53,351 nucleotides of DNA from Candidatus Liptonbacteria bacterium (GTDB taxonomy: Bacteria; Patescibacteriota; Minisyncoccia; UBA6257; 2-01-FULL-56-20), in the NCBI GenBank assembly GCA_016182105.1, contig JACOXZ010000001.1, forward strand, positions 1 to 53,351. The letters are read 5' to 3'. Positions 2,150 through 14,001 of this stretch are shown here, one piece after another. Each line of letters begins with the position of its first letter. Position 1 is the stretch's first letter. Made by a program: the position numbers and the translations under genes. The notes under the pieces are model-generated. The model was not told where the DNA came from, ran no database searches, and saw only the letters and a list, made by a program, of their open reading frames with translations.

Positions 2150-2178
2150 TTGACGCCGTTTTTACTATGCTTTATCTT
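2150..2178 (+). promoter_or_regulatory. Sigma70-like promoter upstream of structured RNA candidate
   Basis: TTGACG (2150-2155), 17-bp spacer, TATCTT (2173-2178). Confidence 0.6.
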
Positions 2179-2185
2179 AAAATCA

Positions 2186-2763
2186 GTCTTTTGAAATCGA
2201 CGTGAGTGGTGGAAGTGTTTGCTGGGTCCGTAAGAACTCATCAGAACCCTCTTGGGAAGTCATTCCCTACGTGAGGCGCGAAGCCTAAGATTATATCAAG
2301 GGTCTCTCGCTAGAGGGTATACCAGCTCGCCTACTTGGATTGGCTGCTTTAAATGGCAATTATCCTAATGACCCGTATGGTCATCTGGGTAATGCCGGTT
2401 CTCAGCTGGTGCCTAGTCTTTTTTTCAGACGGACACGGAAAGGCGAAAGCCAAGTACTGACTCTGACTGACAAGGGAGACGAAACGGCTAAGTAGCGGCT
2501 TCAAAACCGCGAAAAGCCAATGAATGGCCAGGGCAAAATGTGGGTACGGTAAAATAGCTACCGGGGACAGCTATTTAAGCCCAGATGGGAAATACCGAAG
2601 GGAATTTGTTGCCGCAACAAAAGCGGCCGCTAATTCTTTGAGTTGCCTGCCCCTTCAACAAGGACGGGCAACATAACTTCGTTATTTCTATAACGCCCAT
2701 GGCAAACACCTACTACTCTCATCTAGACCCTGAAAACGCGTGAGCGTTACGGGGTCTTTTTTT
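2186..2763 (+). ncRNA. Large structured non-coding RNA candidate (about 580 nt)
   Basis: No ORF of 60 aa or more on either strand; long-range closing helix 2204-2226/2696-2718; at least nine local hairpins, some with GNRA-like loops; own promoter and intrinsic terminator. Confidence 0.75.
2726..2763 (+). terminator. Rho-independent terminator
   Basis: GACCC TG AAAACGC GTGA GCGTT AC GGGGTC TTTTTTT. Confidence 0.85.
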
Positions 2764-2774
2764 ATCCTCAAAAT

Positions 2775-4055
2775 TTAAAAAAGCGTTTTTTGCTTCGGCA
2801 AATCTTCAAAAATCTTTATTTTTCCGTATTCGCCGTCGTAGCCAGGCTCGATCTTGATCCCACCCACTCTTACGCGGCGAATGCCTTCGGCGACAACATC
2901 ATCAAGAGCGCCTAAATCCTCGACTCGAGCGTCAAGTAGAACACCAAATTCCGAACCAAAGACCTGAATAAATTTTTCATAACTCTGAAGTACTGCTTTA
3001 GTGCCCACTTTCTGACCCCTGGCTTCGGCTATAATTTCCTCAAGCGGCACGAGGTTTTTAAAGGGCGTGTAAAAAGGCGGTTTATAGCCCGCTCCTCTAT
3101 CAGCTAGACTTGCCACTCGATTCATCACGCCGATTGTGACTGGCCGTCCGCAAGACCTACATATCCCTTTTTGGGCAGCTGTCTCTTCTGGCGAATAAAC
3201 CACTTGGTGCTGGCGGTGGCCATCATAATGATATTTCCCTTCCTCGGGAAAAAACTCGATTGTAAAAGCCAGCTTAAGCTTGGCTCCACTATCTCTTTTT
3301 TCGCTAAGCGCCTTGGGCGAAGCGTTTTTGATCGCTTGGAAAATAGCGCGGTAAGAAAGCTCATCCCCCTCAAAGGCGTTCGCTTCCCTCCCAAGCTTTG
3401 GGAGCGAATGCGAATCCGAATTCGAGATCAACGCCACCTTATCGAGCTGGGAAAGGCGCCAATTCATTCCCGGGTCAGACGAGAGACCGGTTTCAATGGC
3501 AAAAATTTTTGGCGTGAGTTCTTCAAAACATTCTTCGAGCGAATCAAAACCGGATTGCGAACCGAAGACCGAAAACCACGGCGTCCAAGCGTGGGCCGGA
3601 ATGACGTAAGCTTCTTCCGAAATAGTACTCACAATTTTTAGGAGCTCTTTGGAGTCGAGTCCTAAAATCGGACGGCCATCGCTTTTCAAGTTGCCTATCC
3701 AGCCAAGTTGTATGTTAATCTGACGCACAACTTCGAAAGACGGCGCAAAAACCAAATTATGAACCTTGCGCACCCGACCGCCCTTGGAATAAATGCTCGA
3801 GATCTCGGCAGTTAGCATAAACCTCGTGGCTTTGAGATTTTTCTCTTCGGAATTTAGCACAAAAAGACCGGCCTCGGAGGCCGGCATGAGTTTGCGCTCG
3901 AGCTCTAAAAACCACTGGGGATGAGTGAAGTCGCCGGTACCTAAAACCCTAATGCCTTTTTTTCTCGCAGAGAGGTTAAGCTCTTCCAAAACCATCCGGC
4001 TTGAGGTGGCTCTTGAGTACTTAGAGTGAAGCTGAAGGTCAGCGATAAAGCGCAT
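2775..4055 (-). CDS. PHP-domain endonuclease Q (EndoQ)-like protein
   Basis: 426 aa; MRFIADLQLHSKYSRATSS and GTGDFTHPQWF PHP motifs, zinc-site-like CRSCGRPVTIGV; resembles the EndoQ/YqxK family. Confidence 0.8.
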   Translation of the reverse strand: MRFIADLQLHSKYSRATSSRMVLEELNLSARKKGIRVLGTGDFTHPQWFLELERKLMPASEAGLFVLNSEEKNLKATRFMLTAEISSIYSKGGRVRKVHNLVFAPSFEVVRQINIQLGWIGNLKSDGRPILGLDSKELLKIVSTISEEAYVIPAHAWTPWFSVFGSQSGFDSLEECFEELTPKIFAIETGLSSDPGMNWRLSQLDKVALISNSDSHSLPKLGREANAFEGDELSYRAIFQAIKNASPKALSEKRDSGAKLKLAFTIEFFPEEGKYHYDGHRQHQVVYSPEETAAQKGICRSCGRPVTIGVMNRVASLADRGAGYKPPFYTPFKNLVPLEEIIAEARGQKVGTKAVLQSYEKFIQVFGSEFGVLLDARVEDLGALDDVVAEGIRRVRVGGIKIEPGYDGEYGKIKIFEDLPKQKTLF

Positions 4056-4698
4056 CGGTTGGCTTTGTGCCTTGAACTAGGGGGTCAGTTATGGTTTTTC
4101 TCGGCAAAACCAGTTCTGGAGCGAGGAGCAAGATAAAAGCTGAGGCCAAGGTGAGAATCGCGGCCGCAATAAAAACCGGCTGGAAACCAAAAAATTTGGC
4201 GGCTATCCCGCCTAAAAAACCGCTCACTCCCGCCGCGAGTCCGGCAACGGTCGAGTCAAGAGACCAGTCAAAGGAAACCCTTTCTTTATCTAAATGCCTT
4301 GAAAAAAGAGAGGACCACGAAGGAACGTAGAGGGCAAAACCAATGGCTTGGATAATTTGAACGAGATATAGCTGCCACACTCTATTTATAAGACCGAAAG
4401 AAAAAGCAGCGAGCGAAGCAGTAAAGAGGCCGATGATCAAGGCGTAGAAATCATCTTTTTCGCCGGGTTTTTTATCTAAAAAATTCGCTATCGGCAGCTG
4501 GAGAAGCGACTTCAAAATCCAGTAAATAGAAGCTGCGGCGCCTACCGTAACCAAGGTTGCGCCCTGAACTTTTTCGATCACAAAAATCGAAAATATCGGA
4601 CCGATGAGCCCCCAGCCAGTTAAAAGTGCGAGATCGGCAAAGATCAAATACTTAATCCAGCGGTTGATTTTGAGATTAACGGTGATTTTTATTTTCAT
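4039..4698 (-). CDS. Half-length MFS-type membrane transporter (about 6 TM)
   Basis: 219 aa hydrophobic; LLTGWGLIGPIFSIFVIEKVQG MFS N-terminal pattern; overlaps the EndoQ gene start. Confidence 0.65.
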   Translation of the reverse strand: MKIKITVNLKINRWIKYLIFADLALLTGWGLIGPIFSIFVIEKVQGATLVTVGAAASIYWILKSLLQLPIANFLDKKPGEKDDFYALIIGLFTASLAAFSFGLINRVWQLYLVQIIQAIGFALYVPSWSSLFSRHLDKERVSFDWSLDSTVAGLAAGVSGFLGGIAAKFFGFQPVFIAAAILTLASAFILLLAPELVLPRKTITDPLVQGTKPTDALYR

Positions 4699-13082: not shown

Positions 13083-13192
13083 AGCCATATTATAAAGGTC
13101 AACCCCATTAGAAATAAGCCCTGCCATGGCGGGGCTATCGCCCCCTTCTATGAGGGTGGATTTCTAAACGGGTCAAGAAGAAAGTGACGGAA

Positions 13193-13221
13193 TTGACGGG
13201 AATAGTTTTTTATGATATAAT
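13193..13221 (+). promoter_or_regulatory. Consensus sigma70-like promoter for yraN-yebC-ruvC
   Basis: TTGACG (13193-13198), 17-bp spacer, TATAAT (13216-13221). Confidence 0.75.
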
Positions 13222-13230
13222 ATATACAAA

Positions 13231-13316
13231 GAGGCAATTCGGCAAAAGATCCGGCAATCGGCAATTTTAATTCGGCAATTGCCGGATTCGTTTTTGCCGG
13301 ATTAGTTTTTGCCGTA
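13231..13316. repeat. CGGCAA/TTGCCG short-repeat array
   Basis: Several cggcaa words followed by ttgccg words, with central palindrome CGGCAATTGCCG (13273-13284). Confidence 0.7.
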
Positions 13317-13384
13317 TATAGTAAAATCAAGCTTATCCGATAATGCGATAAAACCTACGTTTTAGCCAAAAAAGCTTGTAAAAA

Positions 13385-13402
13385 ATGTTTAGCGCTAAAC
13401 AT
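13385..13402. repeat. Palindrome ATGTTTAGCGCTAAACAT copy 1
   Basis: Perfect 18-bp palindrome. Confidence 0.9.
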
Positions 13403-13465
13403 TTTATTTTTTATTTTTATAAAAAACTAGGTTTTACGGGCAAATTTTGGTTTTTGTTGTTTTCA

Positions 13466-13483
13466 ATGTTTAGCGCTAAACAT
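13466..13483. repeat. Palindrome ATGTTTAGCGCTAAACAT copy 2
   Basis: Perfect 18-bp palindrome. Confidence 0.9.
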
Positions 13484-13498
13484 TGCGCACGGAAAAAT

Positions 13499-13514
13499 TG
13501 TTTAGCGCTAAACA
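13499..13514. repeat. Palindrome TGTTTAGCGCTAAACA copy 3
   Basis: 16-bp perfect core. Confidence 0.9.
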
Positions 13515-13533
13515 TCGTGTTAATCTGTAAAAA

Positions 13534-13551
13534 ATGTTTAGCGCTAAACAT
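13534..13551. repeat. Palindrome ATGTTTAGCGCTAAACAT copy 4 (supplies yraN start codon)
   Basis: Perfect 18-bp palindrome; its ATG opens the yraN ORF. Confidence 0.9.
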
Positions 13552-14001
13552 TGTGCACAAAGAACAGGGAAAATAGGCGAAGAAAAAGCCTGTGAATTCT
13601 TAAAATCTAAAGGGTATCAAATAATCAAAAGAAACTACCAAAAACCATGGGGTGAAATAGATATTATCGCCTTCACACCAGACAAAACACTTGTATTTTT
13701 TGAGGTAAAAACCATACGGTCCCGCTATGCGGGATCTCGCGAAGCGAGACAATTTTATGATAATTGGGCGGATTCTCTCAAGCCAGAGGATAATTTAAGC
13801 CAAGCCAAGTTAAAAAAGATCCGTCGTTCAGCGCAAATGTTTAGCGCTAAACATTCCGATTTAATTTGTGAAGAAAAAGGTTGGCGTATAGATCTTCTTG
13901 CGTTGACCTTTCGACAGAACTTAGGATCAATCCTAAACGAGTCGAATGGATTGACAACAAATAAAGAAGATTGTATAATAAATCATTACCAAAATATATA
14001 A
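13534..14001 (+). CDS. YraN/UPF0102 family endonuclease-like protein
   Basis: 155 aa; GEEKACEFLKSKGYQIIKRNYQKPWGEIDIIAF...LVFFEVKTI...WRIDLLALT. Confidence 0.85.
   Translation: MFSAKHCAQRTGKIGEEKACEFLKSKGYQIIKRNYQKPWGEIDIIAFTPDKTLVFFEVKTIRSRYAGSREARQFYDNWADSLKPEDNLSQAKLKKIRRSAQMFSAKHSDLICEEKGWRIDLLALTFRQNLGSILNESNGLTTNKEDCIINHYQNI
13720..13749. repeat. Tandem hairpins in yraN CDS
   Basis: TCCCGC TAT GCGGGA followed by TCTCGC GAA GCGAGA; encodes the SRYAGSREAR insertion. Confidence 0.8.
13837..13854. repeat. Palindrome ATGTTTAGCGCTAAACAT copy 5, inside yraN
   Basis: Perfect 18-bp palindrome encoding MFSAKH in frame. Confidence 0.9.

Follow-up and report, generated by a model that had tools for sequence, protein, structure and literature searches.

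The segment at positions 2186-2763 is best read as an undescribed, stand-alone structured RNA gene, probably one that is restricted to its lineage. It lies in a window of 53,351 nt, which is contig C1 of a 588 kb Patescibacteria genome. Computationally, the segment has a gene-like architecture and a strand-biased fold, and the undescribed RNA gene is favoured because there is no Rfam match, no coding signal, strand-biased folding and a promoter and terminator of its own. With one sequence without relatives to go by, the existence of a large structured RNA gene is likely, though unproven. The complete proposal, to which we give an even chance, is a non-translated, stand-alone RNA gene of ~530 nt with its own promoter and terminator and a multi-domain structure, which likely acts via its fold and is recent in the lineage.

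The candidate gene occupies the + strand of a 656-nt gap between two DNA-repair genes that are both encoded on the - strand. On one side, and divergent from the RNA, is polX (310-2118), encoding a PolX family DNA polymerase with a PHP domain (NCBIfam NF006375, 513 bits). On the other side, and convergent with it, is endoQ (2775-4055), encoding an endonuclease Q that matches the EndoQ structures PDB 5zb8 and 7k30 (E ~1e-51) and scores 178 bits against TIGR00375, under the cut-off of 326.6. A terminator directed along the + strand only and a promoter site point to a + strand transcription unit within the gap. The initial annotation had proposed a TTGACG-17-TATCTT promoter, and a candidate sigma-70-type site with this sequence is present at 2150-2178 (+ strand); such sites arise by chance at 0.62 per kb per strand, which makes it statistically weak when taken alone. 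It becomes less weak considering that the RNase P and tmRNA genes of the same genome use the same promoter type, with upstream elements TTGACA-16-TATAAT and TTGACT-17-TAAAAT, respectively. The proposed intrinsic terminator is likewise found at 2725-2763, as a hairpin at 2725-2757 followed by T7 (pair probability 0.95-0.98). Of all hairpin-plus-T6 sites on the contig it is the most stable, and it finishes just short of the endoQ stop codon. The features of a stand-alone ncRNA gene are hence present, i.e., its own (statistically weak) promoter, its own terminator and no ORF. From this architecture we infer that the segment may be transcribed, with the promoter and terminator setting the putative limits of the + strand transcript at 2186 and 2763. 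A leader or riboswitch is ruled out because no + strand gene lies before or behind the terminator.

Folding of 2194-2763 yields -214.4 kcal/mol, corresponding to a z-score of -7.64 on the + strand that none of the shuffled sequences equals, compared to -4.65 for the antisense strand. When the terminator is left out, the values are -6.8 (+) versus -3.5 (-), while the background in the window has a mean z of about -0.7 and a standard deviation of about 1.6. Two qualifications apply: the core lacking the closing helix reaches a z of only -4.0, and the complete gap folds alike on both strands (z -6.1), so that the strand bias appears only once the RNA limits are applied. Strong + strand folding was also observed at the contig end (1-309; z -4.6 for 1-516), which also has GC-rich inverted repeats.

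In the best fold, several domains radiate from a helix that closes the molecule end to end. Its 5' strand (P1a and P1b) spans 2204-2223 and its 3' strand 2701-2718, and it is stable with every flank choice tested. The end pairing that had been claimed holds for 2204-2212 with 2710-2718 (pair probability 0.99) and for 2215-2223 with 2701-2709 (0.91), but the adjoining TGGG/CCCA pairing is replaced in the best fold. Only 1 of 1000 shuffles pairs its ends better, as do ~6 of 1058 natural windows that share the geometry. All domains are predicted on the + strand. Domain A (2246-2318; pair probability 0.96) is a branched hairpin closed by ACCCTCT/AGAGGGT, and domain B (2321-2410; 0.78-0.99) is Y-shaped and closed by ACCAGCT/AGCTGGT. 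Domain C (2411-2488) is a long hairpin (2416-2480; 0.97-1.0) capped by a GAAA tetraloop. Within this domain, a T7 tract at 2418-2424 follows soon after a terminator-like hairpin, a possible site of early termination. Domain F (2588-2689) is two-branched, with main stems at 0.90-1.0, and holds the hairpin at 2642-2672 and the second of two pseudoknot candidates. Among the local hairpins listed initially, GGC-GAAA-GCC and 2642-2672 are retained in the fold, whereas AGGC-gcgaa-GCCT, CTCT-cgct-AGAG and GTCT/AGAC are displaced by other, mostly longer helices. Two further ones, AAATAGCT/AGCTATTT (2552-2576; pair probability 0.56) and TTGTTG/CAACAA (2606-2620), overlap alternative stems and look like parts of pseudoknots. 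The first candidate, CGGT-AA-AATAGC-T-ACCG-GGGACA-GCTATT (2547-2576, + strand), would be of the H-type with two interleaved stems of up to 12 bp. The second (2605-2627, + strand), in TTTGTTGCCGCAACAAAAGCGGC, would be a compact H-type pseudoknot of up to 11 bp with very short loops, which makes it sterically tight. Together, the two overlapping hairpin pairs would fit tandem H-type pseudoknots; a pseudoknot of at least 10 bp of any kind is held by 6 out of 150 shuffles.

BLAST searches of Patescibacteria genomes, 246 from the order, 392 from the class and 389 from the phylum in partly overlapping sets, found no homolog of the RNA. Matches at E 0.0006-1 are pieces of ~15-70 nt, nearly all of which, where examined, lie in protein-coding ORFs. 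Two matches outside ORFs, of 19 nt (L072) and 24 nt (L141), do not extend. As a control, the tmRNA of the host recovers tmRNA in 21-22 of 29 relatives (blastn, E up to 0.001). Two partial covariance models (R1 and R2; regions 2541-2689 and 2321-2495), each built from this single sequence, gave above-chance matches to the host window only among 200 relatives, and the 2321-2495 model matched the host genome alone among 254 genomes of the class. In 1.56 Mb of DNA from the same family, one single-contig genome among it, both models and nhmmer returned nothing above chance. No homolog came from phage and plasmid records or from viral contigs either; eight viral pattern scans produced matches, none of which extends, and one pattern scan of a genome collection produced nothing. 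The blastn and nhmmer comparison with CPR genomes that the initial annotation had put forward as a check thus gave no homolog in the genomes searched. These searches have limited sensitivity, owing to the single-sequence models and to a first-look filter in the genome search, so that a fast-diverging family may have escaped them. Since no search yielded a homolog, neither covariation nor selection is in evidence. The initial annotation had made its claim of an undescribed RNA dependent on covarying homologs, and by that measure the claim is unproven rather than refuted.

Relatives usually carry a Clp-like ATPase gene, an MFS-like gene and polX in tight spacing, and endoQ, when nearby, precedes the ATPase gene. 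The MFS-like gene adjoins polX in these relatives, with neither endoQ nor the RNA in between, and the RNA is therefore lineage-specific at this locus. The host genome has endoQ and the RNA inserted between the MFS-like gene and polX, a unique interruption. In the window, the MFS-like gene (4039-4698) encodes a protein of 219 amino acids that covers about half of the MFS profile; in the family, this gene is kept between the Clp-like ATPase gene and polX. By its PolX homologs in named genomes, the family groups with Candidatus Liptonbacteria, a name that some of its own genomes bear, and with other Parcubacteria. No RNA counterpart was found at the polX loci of these named genomes, nor did a synteny comparison of the polX and endoQ surroundings among relatives reveal one. 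A 440-nt gap before polX in one relative (G014) was considered as a counterpart and rejected, as it looks coding (MFS-like gene). A gap survey of G023, a single-contig genome of the same family, recognised no counterpart; the long gaps looked at hold tRNAs, tmRNA, rRNA edges, repeats or dissimilar sequence.

Elsewhere on the contig, the region 13128-13851, between ruvA (- strand) and a UPF0102 gene (+ strand) and reaching just inside the latter, contains palindromes: TTTAGCGCTAAA occurs five times at 13388-13840 and CGGCAATTGCCG once at 13273. On this contig, the cumulative GC skew reaches its minimum at 13148, by these palindromes. In G023, both palindromes lie upstream of the UPF0102 gene, at ~10 kb or less from the skew minimum if the contig is circular. 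The region is a candidate replication origin.

The main rival explanation takes the segment for a decayed or drifting intergenic spacer, either the remnant of a lost gene or a foreign insert, of which the folding is incidental. We consider this unlikely, yet it weighs more than any other alternative. It would account for the empty homolog searches and for an insertion that is unique at the locus. Furthermore, 7 out of 34 long gaps of the host and related genomes, this gap counted among the seven, have a z below about -6. Most strongly folding long gaps fold equally on both strands, and some owe their fold to tmRNA or inverted repeats. Given how often long intergenic gaps in these genomes fold strongly, a fold by itself is weak evidence. 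Two gaps in relatives (L125 8699-9183 and L123 1633-1963) even reach a z of about -8 on both strands with no Rfam match; they resemble strings or nests of inverted repeats. The absence of homologs, the frequency of strong folds in gaps, the core z of -4.0 and the possible early stop at 2418-2424 all count against an RNA gene. A drifting spacer is nonetheless at odds with a bounded RNA that folds end to end with a strand bias, with a promoter and the best terminator of the contig in the correct places, and with open frames that contain no protein remnant.

It is improbable that the closing helix represents the terminal inverted repeats of a non-autonomous, MITE-like transposon instead of an RNA stem. 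Such an element would explain why a unit of 515 nt has imperfect inverted ends and why its locus is interrupted in the host genome alone, but the unit is single-copy, the genome does not contain even a partial copy at E up to 1, and no target-site duplication was seen by eye. In addition, the interior is structured as well, and both departures from complementarity in the outer nine positions of the helix are G-U, which still pair in RNA. It is similarly improbable that the segment yields an mRNA encoding a small protein, or a cis-antisense RNA directed at polX or endoQ. The locus does contain open frames of 51-73 codons and sits between two DNA-repair genes of the same strand. Yet, in line with the original claim that no ORF of 60 amino acids is present, the longest start-to-stop ORF wholly within the gap measures 51 amino acids, and the open frames have codon scores of -0.07 to 0.08, below the value of 0.108 that marks the 5th percentile for pieces of real genes. 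Pfam matched none of the open frames from both strands of the gap, leaving no protein remnant, and genetic code 25 gave no convincing ORF. The cis-antisense variant conflicts with the predicted transcript, which overlaps no CDS as it begins past the polX start and stops before the endoQ stop codon.

Under the preferred reading of a stand-alone RNA gene, an RNA of ~530 nt would start from its own promoter, stop at its own terminator and fold into one multi-domain body, with an 18-bp helix clamping the two ends. Judging from the architecture alone, its fold may serve as a scaffold for a protein or for copies of itself. Such a role would be the most likely one, rather than that of a riboswitch, guide or mRNA. 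The RNA probably arose in the lineage, or was gained by it, recently and in the same interval as endoQ. RNAs that are both large and structured are rare, and keeping a non-coding gene of 530 nt is costly for a genome of ~0.6 Mb. Should it be transcribed, and also be conserved among close relatives, it would represent a new large-RNA class. To our knowledge, the RNA biology of these organisms is almost unexplored, and the literature on structured RNAs in CPR or Parcubacteria yielded nothing relevant. A more far-reaching and rather doubtful idea is that this is the first known member of a new RNA class, large, pseudoknotted and end-clamped, that is confined to a narrow Patescibacteria lineage whose genomes are smaller than 1 Mb, and that it may assemble with itself or with a dedicated protein.

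As to known families, cmscan against Rfam, the check proposed at the outset, was run over the window at the gathering threshold and matched no family at the segment; in 2050-2850, hits up to E 10 amounted to noise. The observation that tmRNA and RNase P hallmarks are absent was borne out. ARAGORN and Rfam are silent for tmRNA at the locus, as is the covariance model of bacterial RNase P RNA, and the real copies were located on contigs C4 (tmRNA, 137 bits) and C21 (RNase P class A, 93 bits); the segment is therefore neither of these universal large RNAs. The likeness to OLE, GOLLD and ROOL noted initially stands for size and layout, but is backed by neither a model match nor a homolog. Covariation is the basis on which these classes were defined; here, Rfam cmscan assigns no membership and BLAST, nhmmer and the partial models, within their limited sensitivity, revealed no covarying homologs. 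The neighbours are chromosomal genes, no phage or tRNA-array context was found at the locus and the only tRNA of the window lies 6 kb away, unlike the phage or prophage and tRNA-island location of GOLLD and ROOL. A very diverged GOLLD, ROOL, OLE or second tmRNA- or RNase P-like RNA, past the reach of the Rfam models, could be suspected from the size, the end-to-end helix, the tandem pseudoknot candidates and the GAAA loop. It is very unlikely in view of the noise-only cmscan, the recognisable tmRNA and RNase P elsewhere in the genome and the lack of such a context.

ROOL RNA is a phage- or prophage-encoded octameric cage, often near tRNA islands, and many members of the GOLLD family are longer than 800 nt and phage-linked, with tRNA islands nearby (PMC12286853). 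The candidate RNA differs from ROOL in its position between chromosomal repair genes and in having no model match and no homolog family, but shares a comparable length, a multi-domain fold with (candidate) pseudoknots and the absence of an ORF. Like GOLLD, it would be a large, ornate RNA, although it lacks the length of many GOLLD members, the phage link and a model match. OLE is recognisable across many genomes, whereas the candidate is an orphan without a model match; both are of similar length, stand-alone and multi-helix. Finally, the models for tmRNA and RNase P RNA are silent at this locus and their copies lie on other contigs, but these RNAs are of a similar size order, and tmRNA, too, has serial pseudoknots.
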